Shown here piece after piece: positions 21,443 to 35,033 of a stretch of DNA of 36,352 nt. The translations under genes and the position numbers were made by a program. The notes beneath the pieces are model-generated. The model ran no database searches, had not been told where the DNA came from, and was given only the letters and a program-made list of their open reading frames with translations. Position 1 is the first letter of the stretch; every line of letters begins with the position of its first letter. Source of the DNA: a virus; IMG/VR virus record IMGVR_UViG_3300030329_005767, positions 1 to 36,352 of that record; one strand, written 5' to 3'.

Positions 21443-23543
21443 TTGGCAGGTTTTGTTTTGCTAGTTGTGCTTGAAGTAATGCAGTATTTTGTTTCATTTG
21501 TTCACGATCACGTTCCATCATTGCTTTTATTTTAGAACCATCCATTTGTGTATTATATTTAGCTTCCATCTCCATAATTTTTAATTGAGCATCAGCTTCA
21601 ATTTTGTCTTTTTCACGATCATCCAACCTAACCATTTTTTCTCGTTCAAGTTCCAATTTACCCATATCATTTTGAGCATCAGCTTGAGCTTTCTGCATTT
21701 GTATTTGGATATATTGTTCTTCAGCAGAAGGTTGTGGAGGTTCCTGAGGTGGAGCCTGATATTGTGCTGGATCACCAAAAAATGAATCAATATCTTTGAA
21801 TCCTGCCAACTCGACCATACGGGAGAGAGTCATATAGTACTGTCTCAAATTAACAATAGGATTTTCCAACCCAAACTGCTGAAGCAGGGTTTCCTGTTTT
21901 TGAGATATAGTTGACAGGAATTGCATTTTCTCCATATCATTACCAGCACCAAGAGGTATATCAACCATAACATCCATATCAACATCCCAATATCTTGGAT
22001 CAATAGGAATCCATTGATTATTTAACCTTACCATTGATTCTCTATCTTGGTGCCGGTGCACTAATTGAAGAATACCTTTATAAAGTGGTTTTAATCCAGA
22101 TTCAGCAAAAATCCGTGCAATTAATTCAATATGAGCTTGTGCAGCTTTTACTGTTGAGTCAACTGCAAGCCGTGTTGATGATTGCATATTTTCTGAATCC
22201 ATTCCTTGTGATGCTTTTGTAATCCCTGTTCTTGTTGACTTAATTTCATCAAGCATTCCTAAAATTGGTAGAGCTTGCTGACCAACAAAAGGCATATCCA
22301 ATTGTGTTACAGCTCCAGGTGACCGTGCTCTAATAATTGACCCAACTTCGGTATTTAAAACATCTTTTAAATTAACCATATTTTCTTGTACCAACATTCT
22401 TGGATTAACTGCCATTACTAAAGAATCCATAACATTCCTTAATATAGCACTTTTAATTCTTTGAATATCAGCAACAATATCTGTAATTGAAGACCCAATT
22501 GCTGTATGAGGTTCTGGTGAAGGGCAAAATAAAACAAAAGGAATATAATCACATGAATGATTATCCACCACATTATGTGTATTACCAATTGTACATATTC
22601 TCCTTAATTCAGAAATACCATCTTGATCTACATCTAATTTCATATATGATTCACAATATAAAACCTTTCTTTGTGCTGGTTCCATACTTGTTCTACCACG
22701 ATCTGGTGTTTCTGTATGTCTTGCAATAAATTCTTCGTTAGTCCCAAAAGATTCATCTGTGGAAGCATATTCCTCTAATTCTTCAGGATCATACCCTAAA
22801 CTTGTTAATTCCGAAATTGTTTTATAGGAACGATGAGCTACTATATCTGCTTCATTAACATTTTTTGCTCGACGATCAATAAGGAATTCCTCTGGTGGTA
22901 ATGCTTCAACTCTGATTTTTCCTTTTTTAATTCTTTTCTTAACAGAAACATCAAATAGTTGTATACCTTCTGGAGTTTGTTCTTTTGATTCCATTTCAAC
23001 TGATTCAATATCTTCACCACCTGCAAGTATTTGAGCTTGTTGTTCATCAAGACCACTGAATTTTGATGTTGTTACTTTCTCTGATTCTTCCCACCAATAT
23101 TTTATTACTCCTGTTCTTCTAATAAGTGCATCCTTAAACACAGACATCATTGTGTTAAAAAAATCTGATTGTTGTTCCATTAATAAATTATTTACATAAT
23201 CAGAACATTGTTCTGCCATTTGAACATCTTCAGGACTATTAGGAGTAAAATTTAGGATTTTTTTCGTACCAAAAAAGATACGCATTAAGGAAGGTAATAT
23301 TGAATTGACTGTATCTCTAACATCATATGATACAACCCCTGAACGACCATCATCATTTTGTTCCGGAATATGACCAGAGTAATATTTACCAGAAGTTATT
23401 CTATCTTGCCCAAGCTCATCATCGGAATAAGTAATAGCATCATCAAGAAGATGACCTACATAAGATTGAATTTCTTCTTCATCCATTTCTTCAGGAGAAT
23501 CATCAAGTTCAATTAATTCTTCTGATTCATCTTCATATGCCAT
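21435..23543 (-). CDS. Portal protein (702 aa)
   Basis: The 702-aa protein has a highly acidic N-terminus (ESEELIELDDSPEEMDEEEI), then conserved-looking portal segments: KRIKKGKIRVEALPPEEFLI, VLYCESYMKLDVDQDGISEL and SIIRARSPGAVTQLDMPF. The C-terminal 100 residues are Gln/Lys/Glu-rich coil, typical of long P22-type portals with a barrel. It forms the dodecameric ring through which DNA is packed and ejected. It lies between the HNH/TerL genes and the head genes, and its ATG is inside the last 31 bp of the HNH gene, preceded by AAAAAGGAAAAA. Confidence 0.93.
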   Translation of the reverse strand: MAYEDESEELIELDDSPEEMDEEEIQSYVGHLLDDAITYSDDELGQDRITSGKYYSGHIPEQNDDGRSGVVSYDVRDTVNSILPSLMRIFFGTKKILNFTPNSPEDVQMAEQCSDYVNNLLMEQQSDFFNTMMSVFKDALIRRTGVIKYWWEESEKVTTSKFSGLDEQQAQILAGGEDIESVEMESKEQTPEGIQLFDVSVKKRIKKGKIRVEALPPEEFLIDRRAKNVNEADIVAHRSYKTISELTSLGYDPEELEEYASTDESFGTNEEFIARHTETPDRGRTSMEPAQRKVLYCESYMKLDVDQDGISELRRICTIGNTHNVVDNHSCDYIPFVLFCPSPEPHTAIGSSITDIVADIQRIKSAILRNVMDSLVMAVNPRMLVQENMVNLKDVLNTEVGSIIRARSPGAVTQLDMPFVGQQALPILGMLDEIKSTRTGITKASQGMDSENMQSSTRLAVDSTVKAAQAHIELIARIFAESGLKPLYKGILQLVHRHQDRESMVRLNNQWIPIDPRYWDVDMDVMVDIPLGAGNDMEKMQFLSTISQKQETLLQQFGLENPIVNLRQYYMTLSRMVELAGFKDIDSFFGDPAQYQAPPQEPPQPSAEEQYIQIQMQKAQADAQNDMGKLELEREKMVRLDDREKDKIEADAQLKIMEMEAKYNTQMDGSKIKAMMERDREQMKQNTALLQAQLAKQNLPNA

Positions 23544-23947
23544 TTTTTCCTTTTTATAAAATCGTTATAATCTAGCTTACCTTTTTCATAATTACATTTA
23601 TGGCAGCTAATAACTAAATTAGTAATATCGGTAACTTTCTCCCTAGTTTTTAATTTTTTCCTAGGTATTTTATGTTCAATAACAAAAATATCAGGATATA
23701 AAATATCTCCACAATAATGACAAGGAGCAGATGTATCAGCAATACCTTTTGCATCAAGCCAAAGTCTGATGTGAGTTTCTCTACTATAACCACCTTTATA
23801 AATACCTGCTTCTTTTTCTAATTTTCCTCTTTGCTTCCATTTACAATTTAAAGAACAGTATTTTTGTCTGTGGTATTGGTATTTTTTAGGAAAATATAAT
23901 TTCCCACATTGTTCACAATGTTTTTTTAATTCTTGATTTTTTAACAT
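23513..23947 (-). CDS. HNH endonuclease with N-terminal zinc finger (144 aa)
   Basis: Residues 11-35 form a zinc finger (CEQCG ... YCSLNC: Cys11, Cys14, Cys31, Cys35). Residues 76-130 hold an HNH core: CHYCG (Cys76/79), VIEHKIPRK (Glu91, His92), DITNLVISCHKCN (Asn110, Cys115/118), then KG. It cuts DNA; in phages such enzymes either home into intron-less sites or assist terminase cutting in cos-type packaging. Location between TerL and portal fits both. The start codon has no ribosome-binding site and lies inside a large inverted repeat (23941-23997), hinting at controlled expression. It overlaps the portal gene by 31 bp. Confidence 0.9.
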   Translation of the reverse strand: MLKNQELKKHCEQCGKLYFPKKYQYHRQKYCSLNCKWKQRGKLEKEAGIYKGGYSRETHIRLWLDAKGIADTSAPCHYCGDILYPDIFVIEHKIPRKKLKTREKVTDITNLVISCHKCNYEKGKLDYNDFIKRKKWHMKMNQKN

Positions 23948-23997
23948 ATAGCAATAATAGTATCATAAAAATTATACTAATAATATGCTATTGTTAA
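23941..23997 (-). repeat. Imperfect inverted repeat spanning TerL stop and HNH start
   Basis: The arms 23941-23963 and 23974-23997 are nearly complementary (TTAACA[T]ATAGCA...ATAGTAT against ATACTA...TGCTATTGTTAA), with about 10 unpaired bases between them. In the minus-strand mRNA this would fold into a stem of about 20 pairs that covers the TerL stop codon and the HNH ATG (23945-23947). T4 homing endonuclease genes are known to be silenced early by such hairpins. It could also be a weak terminator, though no long T-run follows. Confidence 0.7.
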
Positions 23998-25406
23998 ATA
24001 ATTCCAGGGATATTACGCATTAATGGTTTTTGCCATGAAGCACCCAATCCTGCTGTTGTTGCAGCATTTCCAGCAAATGTTAATACAAAAGCATCGGCAA
24101 AATCTGGAGAACCACGATGACCAATCCGTTTTTTCATTTCTTCTTTTGTTTCCATCCTTATTTTCCCTGATGATTCAAATGAATATCTTGGAGAACATAA
24201 TTCAAACATTAATCGTTCATCTCTAGGGATTCTACAATGTCTCTGTTCAAACCATTCTTTTGCTTTGTGCCACAATTCACACCTTAAATTTTTATATTGG
24301 CCACTAAGAGAAGCAGATTCACCTGTATTAATACCAACAACTGGTAATCCTAATTCCATACCTCTATCAACAATAGAGGCTCCAATACCAATTACATCAA
24401 CAAGTATTTCAACTGGAGCTACTTGATCTTCTTGAGCTTTTTTATATTCTGCATTTATTGCTCCCATTAATTTCATTGTATCAAGTTTTGCCCAAGATTT
24501 AATAGGTTCTAAGATAGTATTACCTCTACGTTTACATAATGCTGATTTATCAGATCCATACCTAGCAACATCTAATCCCCATGAAATACCTCCTTCAGTT
24601 GGGTCTACATCTCTAGTAACAGCACTTTCAACTAATTCATTAGAAATGATAGTATCATCTGATGACTCAGCAAATTCTCCTAAAACACGAATACGATAGG
24701 TATTTGAATCACTACCATATCTTTCTGCCATTTCATCGATATATTCTTTTTTAACACGAGGTGATTCTTCACAATTAACTGTTAAAGTCCACCATCTATC
24801 TTTTAATCTTGTAAAAGCATCATAAAAATACCCTTCTGGTCTAGTTGGGTTACCTAATAATAATAAAGTAGCATTACCAGATAACGACCCACCTGCAGCT
24901 GAGAAAATAGCATCATCAACCGAACTTGCCTCATCAACTATCAATAAAACTTTATCTGAGTGAATACCTTGAAGTGCCTCTGGAGTTTCTTTTCGTGCAG
25001 TTCTACACGATATAAACGAACCAGATGGGTCTGATTTCAATACTATTCTTTCTGAAAATACTTCAAATAATTTCTGCAAGGCAGGAGGTAACCGAGTTAA
25101 TTGACTTTTTAACTCAGCAAATAAAGCATCAAATAATTGACTAGCAGTTGGTGCTGTACAAACAGTTTTTTGTGGATAATAACATAACATATGATGCATC
25201 ATTAACCATGCAGCACAAGTTGATTTACCAACCCCATGACCAGATTTTACTGCTAATAATCTGGATTTTAGAGACTCCTGCATAACTTTTTTCTGCCAAG
25301 GATCTGGTTCTTCCTCTAAGATATCTCTAACGAATTGTATGGGATCGTTCTTGTATTTTCCAATGAATTCTGTAAAAACATTTTGTTTATTTCCTGTAGA
25401 TGACAT
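23994..25406 (-). CDS. terL: Terminase large subunit (470 aa)
   Basis: The 470-aa packaging motor has an adenine-binding Q segment (EPDPWQKKVM, residues 34-42), Walker A SGHGVGKST (55-63), Walker B VLLIVDEA (153-160) and coupling motif LLLLGNPTR (181-189). The RNase H-like nuclease carries the acidic residues GLDVARYGSD (Asp279), ILVDVIGIGA (Asp337) and GSPDFADAFVL near 445. All expected motifs are intact, so it should pump and cut DNA. It overlaps the upstream PD-(D/E)XK-like gene by 91 bp; the start is kept because the Q segment needs the full N-terminus. Confidence 0.97.
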   Translation of the reverse strand: MSSTGNKQNVFTEFIGKYKNDPIQFVRDILEEEPDPWQKKVMQESLKSRLLAVKSGHGVGKSTCAAWLMMHHMLCYYPQKTVCTAPTASQLFDALFAELKSQLTRLPPALQKLFEVFSERIVLKSDPSGSFISCRTARKETPEALQGIHSDKVLLIVDEASSVDDAIFSAAGGSLSGNATLLLLGNPTRPEGYFYDAFTRLKDRWWTLTVNCEESPRVKKEYIDEMAERYGSDSNTYRIRVLGEFAESSDDTIISNELVESAVTRDVDPTEGGISWGLDVARYGSDKSALCKRRGNTILEPIKSWAKLDTMKLMGAINAEYKKAQEDQVAPVEILVDVIGIGASIVDRGMELGLPVVGINTGESASLSGQYKNLRCELWHKAKEWFEQRHCRIPRDERLMFELCSPRYSFESSGKIRMETKEEMKKRIGHRGSPDFADAFVLTFAGNAATTAGLGASWQKPLMRNIPGII

Positions 25407-26430: not shown

Positions 26431-26734
26431 AAATTCCTTTTTTGGTTTTCAAAATTTTTTTGAGCTATATTTTGGGTGTGTGTTACGTTAGGCAAATGGC
26501 ACCCACCGGGGTAGTGAACCCAGGGGGGCAAAATAATAAAATATATGTTACACTAGGCCTAGCCTACAAACCATTCTCCACCCCTAATAGTATTCAATAA
26601 GTACAAATTTGAACACTTTATGTATAAGTATTGATATTATTAACCTTTTTTACCATAAAATCATAAAATCTGAGGTCCCATGCCCACATGGGAGTGACTC
26701 TTTAGGACCCTCTAGCCTTGGTACTCCCATTAAT
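26431..26734. other. GC-enriched structured non-coding island between terminase genes
   Basis: About 300 bp without a convincing gene on either strand. It contains G/C blocks unusual for this genome: GGCACCCACCGGGG and CCCAGGGGGGC (26498-26529), a direct repeat TGTTAC[GT/AC]TAGGC at 26481-26493 and 26547-26558, the palindrome TAGGCCTA at 26554-26561, and hairpins near 26678-26730 (CCCATG...CATGGG; ATGGGAGT...ACTCCCAT with 27 bases between). It separates the small- and large-terminase clusters. A packaging (pac/cos) site or a structured 5' leader of the terminase operon are the main options; both are inference. Confidence 0.6.
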
Positions 26735-26873
26735 TATTATAACCATATATTATAACCATAATATTATAATCATTAACTTTAATACCAATAACTATAATGA
26801 TATTAACTATAAATAAGGCCTATAGTTTAATAATATATAGTTATATTATAGTTATATATATATAGTTATTACC
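26735..26873. repeat. Mirror-image array of TAACTATA / TATAGTTA repeats
   Basis: On the plus strand, 26735-26810 carries four TAAC[C/T]ATA copies and related variants, and 26821-26870 carries four TATAGTT[A/T] copies in the opposite orientation. The two arms meet at AAGGCCTATAG (26815-26825). The right arm runs over the stop codon of the zinc-finger gene at 26869. Such iterated AT-rich sites suit a DNA-binding protein array: replication iterons, a partition-like site or a multi-operator control region. The right arm is shared almost intact with 30847-30905. Confidence 0.75.
26817..26850 (-). promoter_or_regulatory. TATAAT-N24-GGCC module-start element, copy A
   Basis: On the minus strand a consensus -10 box TATAAT (26845-26850) is followed 24 bases later by GGCC in CTATAGGCC (26817-26825). 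The same pair with 25 and 27 bases between recurs at 30847-30881 and 32796-32832. No clear TTGACA is seen upstream. A transcript started here would carry a leader of about 390-410 bases through the GC-rich island before the first packaging-block gene. Confidence 0.5.
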
Positions 26874-27682: not shown

Positions 27683-28153
27683 TCATTTTTCTATTTGTTT
27701 CTTTTTAGGTGTTATATTTTTAATTGTTTTCATTTGTTGTCGTAGTGCTTCAAGGTGTAGTTGTGTTGCATCACTTACTTGCATATCAATAGTTTGTCGT
27801 TCACCATATTCAATTGGAGCATATTTACTAGCAACCCATTGTTTAGCATTAATTATTGTTTTTGCACTTGCAGGGTCAATATGTCCTTTTTCAAGTTTTT
27901 CGGTAATCTCTTGTATTTGGCTTACTGTCATTTCAGCATATGCCTTTTTTGCTTCCTTATATCTAGCATTTAATTCATCATTAGTTGATATTTGGTAATA
28001 TAATCTTTTATAAGGTATTTCAAGTTCTTTAGCCATTTTAGGTAAACTACCAAACTCGGCATAGCCATCAAATATTTTGTCCCAAAATTCTGAATCATCA
28101 AACATCCGACGTTCTCTTGCTCTTCTAGCTCTCCTTATTGGTGTTCCTGCCAT
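27683..28153 (-). CDS. terS: Terminase small subunit candidate (156 aa)
   Basis: The 156-aa protein has an N-terminal basic stretch, then a helix-turn-helix-like region (FGSLPKMAKELEIPYKRLYY), a long helical middle (ARYKEAKKAYAEMTVSQIQE) and IINAKQWVASKYAPIEYGER. The order HTH, RYxxAKxAxxE, then KWxASKxxPxxYGDR/ER is that of many phage small terminase subunits, which bind pac/cos DNA and load TerL. TerL lies 2.3 kb further on, separated by the non-coding island that could hold its binding site. It overlaps the glycosyltransferase gene by 29 bp. Confidence 0.85.
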   Translation of the reverse strand: MAGTPIRRARRARERRMFDDSEFWDKIFDGYAEFGSLPKMAKELEIPYKRLYYQISTNDELNARYKEAKKAYAEMTVSQIQEITEKLEKGHIDPASAKTIINAKQWVASKYAPIEYGERQTIDMQVSDATQLHLEALRQQMKTIKNITPKKKQIEK

Positions 28154-28991
28154 TTTTCCCCATTTGTTTAATTTGTTTTAATACTAACCCATAATTATTA
28201 ATTCCTCGAGGAATATTTATACCTTGTTTTTTAATTAATTTATTATTCCTAAATCCTCTGTAATTTACAACATGTTGCCATCTACCCCATCTTTTTTTAA
28301 TTTTGGTAATATCAGGATGTTGGTCTTTAAGTGATTGTGCCATTTTTAATCTACCATCATCAGCATATAATTCATCTGTATTCCCACCTGTCATAGTCAT
28401 TGTTGCTTGTTTTTCTTGAAGAAATGCATAAAATAATATAGTACACCACCCATCTTTTAATGCTCTGATGGATAAATCAGTATCTTCATTATATCTTCCT
28501 CTCCAACGATATGGAATATCATTTTTAATAAGAATACACGAATATATCCTAGTATTAAACGCTATGGCTGGTCTAACTGATATATCGGGTATAAAAAAAC
28601 GATATTGAAGTCCAGATAATGCAACATTTTCATACCTATCAGTAAAATCCTCTGCTGCTTTCAATATTGTACCTGAAGAAACATTGATTTTCATGTTATT
28701 ATTTCTTCTGCAAAAGTTTCTGATATTATCATCCATTATCCAATGTCTATCAGCACCAATTGAAATAGAATGCTCCCAAACCCAATTTCTTGCAGGTATA
28801 CTTCCTTTTCCTAAATTACTAAAAGGTAAAGTATATATTTTTTCTGAATCTATATATTTTGCATAATCATCATACTCTTGAGGTTCGATAACTATGTGAT
28901 ATGGAACTTTCATCCTTTCAAGTGCTTTACTTGTTAGTCTTGTTTCTGATCTTCCTTTACTTATTATGTAAACTGGGTATTTCGGGTTCAT
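28125..28991 (-). CDS. TAGT-type (TET-associated) glycosyltransferase, likely DNA-base modification (288 aa)
   Basis: The start is set at ATG 28989-28991 (MNPKYPVYIISKGRSETRLT), with AGAGGA just upstream and the domain starting at once; a 314-aa form from 29069 is possible. The GT-A-like features are an acidic WIMDDN motif (residues 85-89), GKGSIPARNWVWEHS (61-75), and YNEDTDLSIRALKDGW (167-182). This pattern is that of the TAGT family, predicted to glycosylate hydroxylated DNA bases in phages. No TET/JBP dioxygenase or hydroxymethyl-pyrimidine synthase is found in the window, so the acceptor is unknown. Its partner gene (124 aa) overlaps by 35 bp. Confidence 0.85.
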   Translation of the reverse strand: MNPKYPVYIISKGRSETRLTSKALERMKVPYHIVIEPQEYDDYAKYIDSEKIYTLPFSNLGKGSIPARNWVWEHSISIGADRHWIMDDNIRNFCRRNNNMKINVSSGTILKAAEDFTDRYENVALSGLQYRFFIPDISVRPAIAFNTRIYSCILIKNDIPYRWRGRYNEDTDLSIRALKDGWCTILFYAFLQEKQATMTMTGGNTDELYADDGRLKMAQSLKDQHPDITKIKKRWGRWQHVVNYRGFRNNKLIKKQGINIPRGINNYGLVLKQIKQMGKNGRNTNKES

Positions 28992-29331
28992 ATTCCTCTT
29001 GAGTTTCACCAAATTCTGTATATTCTCTATCGAATTCATCTTCATCAACCCAAAGTTTATCTGAGGCAACTCTAATTTCTGCTTTTGGGTGCCAATATGA
29101 TTTTGTTAAAGCATGAATTTTTTGTCCTATCTTTTTTTCAAAATCTTTTACATCTTCTTCAGATTTAAAGAACATATATATCATTCTATATGGTGTAAGA
29201 TCTTTTTGTTCATATTCTGGCATTTGTTGCCATTCTGTCTCCCATAAGGCTTCCCAACCCTCTTTATCATCTGTAATGTCACATAATAATGGTTGTTCCA
29301 TTGGTTTTGGTTTTCCACTTCTATATCCCAT
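28957..29331 (-). CDS. Partner protein of the TAGT glycosyltransferase (124 aa)
   Basis: The 124-aa protein contains WQQMPEYEQKDLTPYRMIYM, a FKSEEDVKDFEKKIGQKI helix and TKSYWHPKAEIR. A FxSxEDVxxFxxxIGQxxxxxTKSxWxPxxE pattern is found in small phage proteins or domains next to DNA-modification genes, to my recollection; no catalytic residues are evident. The C-terminus is acidic. Overlap with the glycosyltransferase suggests they act together, perhaps in DNA modification or target recognition. Function uncertain. Confidence 0.75.
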   Translation of the reverse strand: MGYRSGKPKPMEQPLLCDITDDKEGWEALWETEWQQMPEYEQKDLTPYRMIYMFFKSEEDVKDFEKKIGQKIHALTKSYWHPKAEIRVASDKLWVDEDEFDREYTEFGETQEEYEPEIPSLHNK

Positions 29332-29447: not shown

Positions 29448-29906
29448 TTATAATTTATTATCCCATCCAATACCTGTGTTATGAATTCCTTTAACTAAAA
29501 AACTAAATATATTATCATCCTTAACATCGTGATGATCATTACATTTTTTAATCCATACTATAACACCACCTTTTGGATCAATAGTTGACGCTCTAGTTAA
29601 TTGTATATGTTTAAATTGTTTATCATTAGGGAATATTTGTGCAGTTTCCATTGCATCAATAAGAACTTTACACAGATTATCCAAATCAGTATCTGGACCT
29701 CTTTTTATTGGGTAATGTACTTCAACTGCTAATGCTAAATTATCATTATCATTAAATGATTTTGTCCCTTTTGATTTTTCAGTTATCCATAAATATACTA
29801 CTTCAGCAATAAACTGTCTTGCTTGTTTTGTTTTTATTAATCTTTTACCAACTATTTGCCAATATCTATTAGCACTAATCGGGAATGGTAGTTTTAATTT
29901 CAGCAC
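29448..29906 (-). CDS. rusA: RusA-type Holliday junction resolvase (152 aa)
   Basis: The 152-aa protein begins LKLPFPISANRYWQIVGKRL and carries the family's acidic core PDTDLDNLCKVLIDAM (Asp72, 74, 76 with Asn77) plus FPNDKQFKHIQLTR (Asp95). RusA dimers cut Holliday junctions formed by recombination. Length is slightly above E. coli RusA (120 aa). It overlaps the loader-like gene by 32 bp and complements the ERF/exonuclease system: branched concatemers must be resolved before packaging. Confidence 0.93.
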   Translation of the reverse strand: MLKLKLPFPISANRYWQIVGKRLIKTKQARQFIAEVVYLWITEKSKGTKSFNDNDNLALAVEVHYPIKRGPDTDLDNLCKVLIDAMETAQIFPNDKQFKHIQLTRASTIDPKGGVIVWIKKCNDHHDVKDDNIFSFLVKGIHNTGIGWDNKL

Positions 29907-30306
29907 GAAAATCCTCCAATGATTGTTTTTGTTTTGCTGCTTTCTGTAGTTTATGTAGTAATATTTTCATTTTATCAGGCATAGGAACTGGTTTACTTTT
30001 TGGTGATGGTAGCATTTTCTTTTGTTCTTCCAATTGTGCCAAATAAATATTATCTTCACAAGCCATTCTTTTTGGGTTGTTCATAGTTCCCTCTCGTATA
30101 TCTTTAATTGTTGGGAAAAAACTTTCACTATTAATATGACTATCAAAAGATTTTTTTATTCTTTCTGAAGTAAAATCATTTAAAGCTTCTGCCCATAAAT
30201 TAATTTCTGGTTTTCCTAATTTACCAAATTCTCGAACATGAGCATGATAATTTAACTCACATTTTTTTAAACTGATTAATAATTGCTTGTAAGCTTCCTT
30301 TTGCAT
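29875..30306 (-). CDS. Helicase-loader-like replication protein (143 aa)
   Basis: Residues 30-75 (KPEINLWAEALNDFTSERIK, then FDSHINSESFFPTIKDIREG) follow the W-x-x-x-L.D...E.I..x...H....FFPTI.DI pattern of the G39P-like/phage loader N-terminal domain that binds the replicative helicase. The C-terminal part is Lys/Gln-rich helix. No helicase gene is present, so the target would be host DnaB. It overlaps RusA and the upstream zinc-finger gene. The family call is by pattern only. Confidence 0.75.
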   Translation of the reverse strand: MQKEAYKQLLISLKKCELNYHAHVREFGKLGKPEINLWAEALNDFTSERIKKSFDSHINSESFFPTIKDIREGTMNNPKRMACEDNIYLAQLEEQKKMLPSPKSKPVPMPDKMKILLHKLQKAAKQKQSLEDFRAEIKTTIPD

Positions 30307-30458
30307 TTTTCAAATTTATAATCTTCAACACAATCATCTGAACAAAATTGTGTTCGTTTATGGATTTCATCAGGATGATTATTAATAATCTTATTACACA
30401 TCTTACAAATTCTAATTTTATTTTTCCTTAAGAATTTATATTTTTCCCAATTATTCAT
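30276..30458 (-). CDS. Small zinc-finger protein (60 aa)
   Basis: A 60-aa basic protein with one zinc finger: CKMC (Cys18, Cys21) and FCSDDC (Cys39 to Cys43), with the same plan as the fingers in the 207-aa and HNH proteins. Its ATG overlaps the stop of the upstream gene (TAATG) and it overlaps the loader-like gene by 31 bp. Small DNA-binding accessory role presumed. Confidence 0.75.
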   Translation of the reverse strand: MNNWEKYKFLRKNKIRICKMCNKIINNHPDEIHKRTQFCSDDCVEDYKFEKCKRKLTSNY

Positions 30459-30841
30459 TAATTTAATGTTTTTTGATTATTTTCCATATTAAAGAATTCA
30501 ATATCTAATTGTGATAATTGATCTCTAGATTTATTTTTTAAAATAACATCTTTATTACGATCAGGAATTAAATCAAACCTTATCCCAATCCATTGATTAA
30601 GCATACTCTGATTTATTACATGATATATATCCCTTCCTTCCATATATCTATTCCTAATTTCTGATAACATACGACTAGCAGCATTAAGAGAATTCCAAGG
30701 TTTCATTTTCCCATTATGTTCTGCTTCCTCTTGTTTATATGCTACCCATTCGGGCCATATTTCTAAAAATTCAGTATGATTTTTTAATTCTTCTGGAATT
30801 AATACTTTCTCCAAAATATCATTAGTGGATGGATGTTTCAT
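30458..30841 (-). CDS. Replication initiator-like protein (127 aa)
   Basis: The 127-aa protein has LIPEELKNHTEFLEIWPEWV, YKQEEAEHNGKMKPWNSLNA and GRDIYHVINQSMLNQWIGIR. The order FxxxWxxWxxYK...K..xS..AA..L..I......G.DI..VI..S....W.GI is that of the C-terminal helicase-loading part of phage replication initiators; the usual N-terminal DNA-binding domain is absent. Copy B of the module-start element lies directly upstream, and its ATG has no ribosome-binding site. With the next genes it probably recruits the host replisome. Confidence 0.75.
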   Translation of the reverse strand: MKHPSTNDILEKVLIPEELKNHTEFLEIWPEWVAYKQEEAEHNGKMKPWNSLNAASRMLSEIRNRYMEGRDIYHVINQSMLNQWIGIRFDLIPDRNKDVILKNKSRDQLSQLDIEFFNMENNQKTLN

Positions 30842-30846
30842 AACAG

Positions 30847-30905
30847 GGCCTATAGTTTAATATTTATAGTTATATATTATAGTTTTATATATATATAGTT
30901 ATACC
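30847..30905 (-). promoter_or_regulatory. Module-start element, copy B, with four TATAGTT repeats
   Basis: This 59-bp stretch matches 26817-26873 nearly base for base: GGCCTATAGTTTAATA, then three more TATAGTT units and a final TATACC. On the minus strand TATAAT lies at 30876-30881 and GGCC 25 bases after it. It begins inside the stop codon of the ERF gene and ends 6 bases before the ATG of the initiator-like gene. Promoter/operator or iteron function inferred. Confidence 0.65.
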
Positions 30906-32758: not shown

Positions 32759-32795
32759 TTGTACTCCTACCTTCAATGGTTAGATGGCCTTCCAT

Positions 32796-32832
32796 GGCCT
32801 ATAGATACCAATTTTCCAAATTGGCTATTATA
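32796..32832 (-). promoter_or_regulatory. Module-start element, copy C, with operator-like inverted repeat
   Basis: On the minus strand TATAAT (32827-32832, inside the end of the HTH gene) is followed after 27 bases by GGCC in CTATAGGCC (32796-32804). Between them, at 32808-32824, lies a 7-bp inverted repeat CCAATTT-tcc-AAATTGG, placed about where transcription would begin, as expected for a repressor operator. The HTH protein encoded just upstream is a natural candidate to bind it. No good -35 hexamer is seen. Confidence 0.55.
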
Positions 32833-33094: not shown

Positions 33095-33281
33095 TAGAAT
33101 TTTAAAAAAAATTAAAATTATTTTAATATATAAATATATGATTTTATTATAAAAATAAAAAAAGTTTAATTTTTATTAAAAAAAGTGTTTACAAATGTTT
33201 ACAAGTTTGATACCATGTTTATACATTATCAATAACGATGATGTATTTTTATAAAATAACCAATGTTCATAAGGAGATATT
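33095..33281. promoter_or_regulatory. Divergent switch region, with AT tracts and TGTTTA repeats
   Basis: The 187 bp upstream of the DUF932 gene hold long A/T runs (33095-33185) and, at 33186-33225, three repeats: TGTTTACAA (33186-33194), TGTTTACAA (33196-33204) and TGTTTATACA (33216-33225). Starts are 10 and 20 bp apart, so they lie on one face of the helix. Both TGTTTACAA copies contain a -35-like TTTACA; possible -10 boxes are TACCAT (33211-33216) and TATACA (33220-33225). This fits an operator for a repressor over the plus-strand promoter; replication iterons are an alternative. Confidence 0.6.
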
Positions 33282-34325
33282 ATGGGAACATTAATCGTAG
33301 AGAAAAAAACAACAATGTCAGAACTAAACAAAATGCCTAATCCAGTTCCGGCAACAAAATGGCATAAACCAATCCCTCATTTTCAAGCAATAACATCTGT
33401 TATAAATAATATTGAATCAAGAGGACTTGAAATTTCAGATCTTGAAGTTGGTACAAGTCATAAAAATCAAAGATGTTTTTGGTTAGCAAAATTAAAAAGT
33501 AAAGAAGGTGATTATGCCCCAATGATTGGTGGTAGGAATGCACACGATAGATCAGTATCACTTGCACTTTATGGTGGTGCTTCAATTTTTATTTGTAGTA
33601 ATCTTATGGTTTCTGCTAAATTTCAGGATCGTAGAAAACATATGGGAGATATCCAACAAGAACTTCCAGAATTAATACAAACATCTATTGATAGAGTATT
33701 AATGGATAATACAATTAATAAAAAAAGAATTTCATATTATAAAAATCAGTCATTATCTGATAAAGATGCATATTATTTTATGATTGATGCTATGAAAAAA
33801 GAAATTCTTGGCCCATCCAAAATTAAATACTTAGTAGAACAATGGGAAAACCCACTTCATGATGAATTTTCTAATAAAAATGCTTGGAGTCTTCATAATT
33901 GTTTTACTGAAGTATTTAAGGATTTAACTTCTGCTGATTTGGTTTACCATAGGAACACAGTCCTTAATGGAATGTTGGATGATTTTACTGATTTCAAAAA
34001 ACCTATAATTGATATTACTCCTGCAAAACCTAAGGAAGAAAAAACTACTCCAGTTGTAGTTAAAACTAAACTTAAGGTTAATAAACCTAAGAAAAAAGCA
34101 AAAGTTAATATCAAGAGAAAAAAGGTTGTCGTTTCTGATAAGCATAAAAAACTTCTTAAGTCCAAAAATATCCAAATAACTAATACTGGGGCTGATGTAT
34201 TAGCTGATATTTTAAATGTGCCAATATCAAAAATGACAAAGAAACGAAAAGAAATTAGTGATGGAAGTAGATTAAGAGCAAAAAAAGTGATGGAAAAAGT
34301 TAGATTAAGAGCAAAAAAAGCTTAA
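33282..34325 (+). CDS. DUF932-family protein with basic tail (347 aa)
   Basis: Residues 1-230 match the DUF932 phage/plasmid family: HFQAITSVINNIESRGLEIS, RCFWLAKLKSKEGDYAPMIG and AHDRSVSLALYGGASIFICS followed by NLM. The last motif (sSLALxxGxxVFxCSNLxxS) is the hallmark. Residues 240-347 form a Lys-rich, Pro-spaced tail (KPKEEKTTPVVVKTKLKVNK) with a repeated RLRAKK at the end, probably binding nucleic acid. AAGGAG sits 5 bases before the ATG. The biochemical role of DUF932 is not established; here it leads the plus-strand block. Confidence 0.88.
   Translation: MGTLIVEKKTTMSELNKMPNPVPATKWHKPIPHFQAITSVINNIESRGLEISDLEVGTSHKNQRCFWLAKLKSKEGDYAPMIGGRNAHDRSVSLALYGGASIFICSNLMVSAKFQDRRKHMGDIQQELPELIQTSIDRVLMDNTINKKRISYYKNQSLSDKDAYYFMIDAMKKEILGPSKIKYLVEQWENPLHDEFSNKNAWSLHNCFTEVFKDLTSADLVYHRNTVLNGMLDDFTDFKKPIIDITPAKPKEEKTTPVVVKTKLKVNKPKKKAKVNIKRKKVVVSDKHKKLLKSKNIQITNTGADVLADILNVPISKMTKKRKEISDGSRLRAKKVMEKVRLRAKKA
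34268..34320 (+). repeat. 20-bp direct repeat in the DUF932 C-terminus
   Basis: The sequence TAGATTAAGAGCAAAAAAAG occurs at 34268-34287 and 34301-34320 (period 33 bp). It encodes two copies of RLRAKK at the basic C-terminus. Exact identity suggests a recent in-frame duplication that extends the positively charged tail. Confidence 0.8.
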
Positions 34326-34381: not shown

Positions 34382-34582
34382 ATGGAAAATAAAACATTTA
34401 CAGAATATTTAATGGAGTGCCTCGATCCAGAGGAATGTGTTAGAATCTATAGGGAGAGAAAATATGGGAAAAAAGCCTTTCACAAAAAAACAAATTCAAA
34501 AAATAAGAATAAAAATAAAAGGGAATCCACTTCAAGAACTATTATTAAACCTGTCAGTGGATCTGATGTTAAGAAGCTCTGA
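34382..34582 (+). CDS. Possible small protein overlapping the integrase (66 aa)
   Basis: The frame MENKTFTEYLMECLDPEECV looks like real protein for about 35 residues; the rest (Lys/Asn/Ser-rich) reads in a different frame over the first 119 bp of the integrase gene. No ribosome-binding site precedes it. It may be an excisionase-like or leader protein whose translation feeds the integrase start, or its 5' half may be a remnant. Uncertain. Confidence 0.45.
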   Translation: MENKTFTEYLMECLDPEECVRIYRERKYGKKAFHKKTNSKNKNKNKRESTSRTIIKPVSGSDVKKL

Positions 34583-35033
34583 TTTGTTATCCTTAAAAAT
34601 TTCGGATGTTATTAATCAGAATGGTTCAATTAAATCAGAAATTAAGGTTAAACAGAAAAAAACAGGGAAGTCCACATTACCCATACCCTTGAGTGAACTA
34701 TCTCTTAAAACGATAGCTAAACACCTTATTAATAAACCATTAAATGATTATATATTTAAAAGTCAAATGTATAATTATACTAAAAAACCAATAACTAGCC
34801 AACAGTATGCTAGAATTGTTAAAAAATGGGGAGAATATGCAGGGATTGAAGATGTGTCTGAATATTCCACTCACAGTATGCGTAAAACAAAAGCCTCTGT
34901 TATATATATGGAGACCAAAGATGTTGAAGCATGCAGACGTTTACTTGGTCAGACAAGTGTAATAGCAACTAGTGCATATTTAGGAGTATCTGACAACTCT
35001 GCACTTAAACTTGCAAAATCAATAATGATATGA
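34464..35033 (+). CDS. int: Minimal tyrosine recombinase / integrase (189 aa)
   Basis: The start is ATG 34464-34466 because GGGAG lies 7 bases upstream; GTG 34437 is an alternative. The protein is nearly only the catalytic domain. Visible residues: Arg37 (LMLRSSDLLSLKISDV), Lys66 in the beta-hairpin, His137-x-x-Arg140 (STHSMRKTKAS), Gln163 in LLGQTS where His is usual, and Tyr172 (TSAYLGV). It lacks the N-terminal arm-binding and most of the core-binding domain of typical phage integrases (over 300 aa). It may integrate the phage, resolve dimers or invert DNA. It overlaps the next gene by 4 bp. Confidence 0.88.
   Translation: MGKKPFTKKQIQKIRIKIKGNPLQELLLNLSVDLMLRSSDLLSLKISDVINQNGSIKSEIKVKQKKTGKSTLPIPLSELSLKTIAKHLINKPLNDYIFKSQMYNYTKKPITSQQYARIVKKWGEYAGIEDVSEYSTHSMRKTKASVIYMETKDVEACRRLLGQTSVIATSAYLGVSDNSALKLAKSIMI

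Follow-up and report, generated by a model that had tools for sequence, protein, structure and literature searches.

Facing repeats between the terminase genes of a virus and a second copy of one half at the replication genes: possible sister sites of one phage protein

In this study, we analyzed an array of short repeats in the genome of an uncultured and probably marine phage, the window being its entire record of 36,352 bases, and determined that one half of the array has a second copy in the gap between the Erf gene and the gene p127, at the head of the replication genes. This copy (c2; its counterpart in the array is c1) had been overlooked in the preliminary description of the array. Based on sequence comparison, the half adjoining the zinc-finger gene, together with its second copy, is the conserved core of the array, rather than the mirror symmetry by which it was first recognized. 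Our best explanation, which we put forward tentatively, is that the array belongs to a pair of sister cis-sites, c1 and c2, through which a single phage protein would control the replication operon and the late operon, each site being a promoter-operator. The array thus looks like a two-site control element, a kind that is unusual but has precedents.

The first and last 99 bases of the record are identical and a reading frame crosses the join, and therefore the genome as assembled is circular with 36,253 bp; the overlap lies at a place unrelated to the features described here (Table 1). The window encodes an SU10-type capsid protein and adaptor, a portal protein, an Sf6-type small terminase, Erf, an exonuclease, SSB, RusA, a helicase loader, a TET-associated glycosyltransferase and an integrase-family protein (34437-35033), the last of which suggests lysogeny by integration. 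The glycosyltransferase (28125-29069; Pfam TAGT, E=1.2e-44) suggests that the DNA may be modified, and no TET-like gene was found among the scanned window proteins. Related HNH genes lie after TerL in the window (23513-23947) and, in distant relatives (L053:4392-4781, L056:2932-3333 and L058:1022-1423), in the interval from p127 to the helicase-loader gene, as if the gene had moved. Relatives, which are referred to by L-numbered loci, were drawn from IMG/VR, and a TerL scan of GTDB genomes identified none. One of them, L012, has at its end (positions 1-54) 54 bases that are 100% identical to window positions 33257-33310, whereas the stretch adjoining them is ~71% identical. A marine alphaproteobacterium is our guess for the host, because the lineage of the related phage phiM5 has been placed, for its early descent, in marine alphaproteobacteria (SAR116; PMC10386132).

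Table 1. Positions of the array, its second copy, the adjoining block and neighboring genes in the window
Feature	Position	Strand	Remarks
Left half of array	26735..26816	-	Tandem block with AAC[C/T]ATA units (TATRGTT on the transcribed minus strand)
Right half of array (copy c1)	26817..26869	-	Minus-strand AACTATA units ending in TTAAACTATAGGCC
Copy c2 of right half	30847..30903	-	Fills the Erf/p127 gap; 89% identical to right half
Conserved non-coding block	26466..26725	-	~260 bp, adjoins array; dyads A, B and C; probable packaging terminus
Dyad A	26676..26693		TCNCATG-N4-CATGNGA; symmetric changes (C/G, G/C, A/T) among relatives
Dyad B	26590..26616		TGTTCA-N13-TGAA(C/T)A with adjoining conserved ATATCA
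Dyad C	26498..26529		C-run/G-run inverted repeat; G arm degraded to GGTGGG in the window
Zinc-finger ORF, 207 aa	26869..27492	-	Found in distant relatives; missing in L009-L014
Terminase small subunit (TerS, Sf6-type)	27683..28153	-	Protein scan
Terminase large subunit (TerL)	23994..25406	-	Protein scan; 48.6% identical to phiM5 TerL
p127, conserved protein downstream of c2	30458..30841	-	Weak O-like signal in one relative
Helicase loader p143	29875..30306	-	phrog_2289, E=1.9e-8

Structure and conservation of the array

The preliminary description had reported four units on either side of a GGCC core, facing each other between the terminase genes, and this was confirmed. The array (26735-26869) has exactly eight units, all of which face the central GGCC (26817-26820): on the plus strand, AACCATA at 26741 and 26754 and AACTATA at 26790 and 26805 on one side, and TATAGTT at 26821, 26836, 26847 and 26861 on the other, the whole lying between the TerS and TerL genes. 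None of 5000 dinucleotide shuffles reached eight units (mean 0.42), a test that is partly circular as its unit pattern came from the earlier finding. Since the unit had been read off the sequence first, 8-mers were also scored without any preset unit, which gave 24 direct repeats in the array versus 10.8 (P=0.005) and 11 inverted matches across its center versus 4.8 (P=0.06). None of the 68 other AT-rich 139-bp windows of the genome matched the array in either score. Together, these results demonstrate that the array exceeds AT bias, as had been proposed, although its inverted symmetry taken alone is modest.

Spacing of the units is irregular (13, 36 and 15 on one side; 15, 11 and 14 on the other) and therefore they are not textbook iterons. 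Their core is 7 bp, with spacings in the conserved half of 11-16 in the window and 10-21 in relatives, and the 17-22 bp direct repeats at regular helical spacing that characterize iteron origins were not found in the array. An exact search for GGCCTATAGTTTAAT among viral contigs returned 17 contigs, many with the match in a tRNA-like or coding context and none of them relatives. The contig ends near the array in L004, L013 and L021 were considered as physical ends and set aside, assembly breaks at repeats being the more likely cause.

Comparison with relatives revealed that the two halves of the array differ. Wherever close relatives cover the right half it is conserved, being retained in L005, L009-L012, L014 and L114, and the mirrored layout is common to three of these (L011 and L012, <<<<>>>>>; L114, <<<<>>>>). 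In L005, L009, L010 and L014 the right half is retained partly or wholly and the left half consists of different tandem repeats. The left half falls in an untranslated region read in the direction of the genes (minus strand), and its identity between clades is 0.25-0.39 versus 0.47-0.56 at TerL fourfold-degenerate sites, a deficit that is as expected from tandem-repeat turnover. In more distant relatives its place is often taken by tandem repeats that are poor in C, with units of ~15-24 bp and TATAG cores. The left half is thus a fast-changing tandem-repeat block that has been replaced in sister clades. Accordingly, conservation of the region in relatives held for the right half, and for the mirrored layout in three genomes, but not for the left half.

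A link of the array to the 207-aa zinc-finger protein, a candidate for its binder, was not supported in the same comparison. The zinc-finger gene is absent from L009-L014 while the right half is kept, indicating that the gene is not needed for the array. Among distant relatives the protein has mostly 24-36% identity, with 45% in L143.

The second copy and the genes around it

Copy c2 ends at most 6 nt from the p127 start codon. It was found in the same Erf/p127 gap in L010, L012, L112, L114, L115, L116 and L123, and all nearer relatives that cover the gap have c2 there; a diverged AT-rich version occupies the gap in L053, L055, L056 and L058. The order of the genes on the c2 side, including the helicase loader, is also conserved in relatives. 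In the window, the start of c1 and that of c2 each coincide with the stop codon of the preceding gene or ORF, and the two copies have an identical orientation relative to transcription. Of all non-coding gaps in the genome, the one with c1, which precedes the late operon, is the largest.

The two copies co-vary. The k-mer make-up of c1 is closest to that of the c2 of its own genome (permutation P 0.0002-0.0006 in seven genomes; by lineage, P 0.008-0.017 in five lineages), with the proviso that AT-rich sequences may resemble each other by composition, which could inflate the similarity. In addition, L125 and L130, from which the c1 array is absent, have no such units at c2 either. The simplest reading of these sequence patterns is that one factor would read both c1 and c2 and change with them.

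In nearer relatives the p127 ATG is 5-7 nt after TATAGG and lacks a clear Shine-Dalgarno sequence, which is what would be expected if TATAG is a -10 element. Distant relatives have TTAAYTATAG followed by a longer leader and a Shine-Dalgarno sequence before p127. A scan for the sigma-70 consensus (-35/-10) identified no minus-strand sites at c1 or c2.

Conservation of p127 is strong; all nine p127 family members matched phrog_18589 (function not known) and one of the nine matched phrog_678 (replication initiation, O-like; E=0.0024). The predicted fold of p127 is of low confidence (mean pLDDT 66.7), and the sole significant match in a structural search with the model was the same protein, UniProt A0A516LE15. 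As p127 is 100% identical to this entry, the window virus or a near twin has already been deposited elsewhere, and the record behind the entry might show the physical ends of the virus.

Other features of the surrounding region were also observed. In L130 (7440-8010) the AT-rich region on the Erf side is separated from p127 by an inserted HTH (repressor-like) gene. In the window, two hairpins that are retained in relatives occupy the HTH-SSB intergenic gap (32777-32827), in one of which the arms change together (GGCC..GGCC, GGAC..GTCC), making it a possible attenuator. A third GGCCTATAG at 32796 was considered as a further copy of c1 and rejected; relatives read CTATTGGAC or CTATAGGAC there, and it is part of a different hairpin.

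The conserved non-coding block

The block adjoining the array exceeds neutral sites in conservation. In between-clade pairs, the first half, which has dyads A and B, shows an identity of 0.74-0.79, and the second, with dyad C, one of 0.61-0.71, compared with 0.47-0.56 at TerL fourfold sites. A C-run/G-run dyad is present within 300 bp upstream of TerL in 43 of 52 TerL relatives (42-56% identity), versus 17 occurrences elsewhere in the same loci in 482,780 bp, and closer relatives carry it inside the conserved block. In most TerL relatives of 53-55% identity (loci L059-L111) a C-run/G-run dyad, usually GACCCCCCCC...GGCGGGG, is present 100-230 bp upstream of TerL. Since such a dyad near TerL is also found at the direct-terminal-repeat boundary of phiM5 and LUZ24, the block is probably, by analogy, a packaging terminus at which terminase would cut. 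The retention of dyad C in L125 and L130 without the array indicates that array and block are separable.

The block could instead act at the RNA level, as a structured leader of the late mRNA, as its several conserved dyads with symmetric changes might suggest. We consider that improbable, as the block shows no sign of being RNA: its folding energy is near that of shuffles and no better for the sense than the antisense strand (mean z ~-1 vs -1.7), dyad A has as many G-U as A-C pairings (nine of each), and an Rfam scan of the block produced no matches.

For a phage with direct terminal repeats, the cutting of concatemers requires that the repeat be duplicated. The mechanism of that duplication has been described as unknown for phages without their own RNA polymerase (SU10 paper, PMC4281155). 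The block is short and bears a recognizable C-run/G-run mark common to the terminal repeats of phiM5 and LUZ24. The array is linked to a further site beside the replication genes. Block and array both provide testable predictions for a large group of uncultured viruses.

Possible functions and known systems

In the explanation we tentatively prefer, c1 and c2 would be sister sites of one phage-encoded DNA-binding factor, whose existence we infer, with c2 directly upstream of the operon of p127 and the helicase loader and c1 immediately before the long operon of late genes (p121, TerL, portal, capsid). Each site would be an AT-rich promoter-operator, with cooperative binding to the AACTATA units and with TTAAACTATAGGC as the -10/start region. 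The second, oppositely oriented repeat cluster at c1 would lie in the untranslated leader and create the mirror look, and the non-coding block behind the array would be a DNA element in its own right, for which the role of packaging terminus is the most likely one. Counted for the promoter-operators are the synteny of c2, the co-variation of the copies, their shared orientation and stop-codon starts, the c1 gap ahead of the late operon, the TATAGG-ATG distance and the double absence in L125 and L130. Counted against them are the absence of a sigma-70 site, the irregular spacing and the possibility that composition drives the resemblance of c1 to c2.

Of the functions originally suggested for the array, an operator and a replication origin both remain leading readings, whereas a partition center does not. 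If c1 and c2 formed a pair of origins, as in SPP1, initiator repeat sites and an AT-rich unwinding zone would be found at each, with one site by the initiator and helicase-loader genes and the other 4 kb away. We regard this as somewhat unlikely, yet it stays alive because of the helicase loader p143 beside c2, the weak O-like match of the adjoining p127 and the SPP1 precedent of two similar origins with repeats and AT-rich zones, one in an initiator gene (PMC6316719); the co-variation of c1 and c2 would suit it as well. Weighing against origin activity are the irregular spacing, the shortness of p127 (127 aa), whose other family matches are without known function, and the missing c1 array in L125 and L130. 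GC skew, which had been proposed as a check for an origin, likewise has no inflection at c1 or c2; it changes sign only once, near 33 kb, at the switch in gene direction, and because all genes at the two sites run one way it is uninformative on this question.

The array itself might also be part of the packaging site, such as TerS-binding repeats or one boundary of a terminal repeat. It abuts the block with the dyad by which the boundaries of the direct terminal repeats are marked in phiM5 and LUZ24, and its distance from dyad C (~320-370 bp) is near the length of the 357-bp phiM5 repeat. Nevertheless, there is no such block beside c2, and L125 and L130 have the dyad and no array, so that we judge this role unlikely. 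More speculative still is that the c1 array and the packaging terminus are one machine, in which initiation at c1, of replication or of late transcription, would run into the terminal-repeat region and duplicate it or expose it for cutting, while c2 would set the timing via the same factor. This is a long shot; if true, the formation of genome ends would be coupled to both replication and late transcription in a phage that has no RNA polymerase of its own. A phage partition center (parS-like) has only the clustered inverted repeats in its favor and is very improbable, given that no ParA/ParB-like protein was found among the ~27 window proteins scanned (some small ORFs being outside the scan) and that the integrase-family protein suggests lysogeny by integration.

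The closest counterparts to the conserved block are in Sinorhizobium phage phiM5 and Pseudomonas phages LUZ24 and tf, which likewise have a C-run/G-run inverted repeat near their terminases. In phiM5, the sole dyad in C-first order lies in the reported 357-bp direct terminal repeat, once per copy, and ends 12-13 bp before the repeat boundary and 36 bp before TerL. LUZ24 has such a dyad at the very start of its genome and one further at 431. In its relative tf, whose ends were mapped experimentally, the genome ends are CCCCGG / ATCTC and the genome starts with CCCCGG (PMC3517423). Unlike in those phages, the dyad of the window is partly degraded and its terminus is predicted from sequence. In phiEco32 and 7-11 the dyad is absent from the first 1.5 kb of their records, and therefore it is not general to podophages of this capsid type.

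For the pair of sites, the parallel is Bacillus phage SPP1, which has two origins of similar build (direct repeats and an AT-rich zone), one inside the initiator gene, and whose initiation needs a helicase loader (PMC6316719). As with SPP1 oriL and oriR, c1 and c2 are two distant, similarly built sites per genome with repeats and AT-rich sequence, one of which (c2) is tied to replication-initiation genes and adjoins the helicase-loader gene. They differ from the SPP1 origins in being 4 kb rather than about 13 kb apart, in the mirror arrangement of the repeats at c1, and in that c2 is upstream of, not inside, p127, whose role as initiator is a candidate one. With respect to the promoter-operators that we prefer, the spacing of the units is irregular compared to that of cooperative phage operator clusters, the regulator is one we infer, and two coupled sites are present at different operons. 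What the array has in common with such clusters is that a promoter-like region is flanked by several short sites, with both orientations represented.
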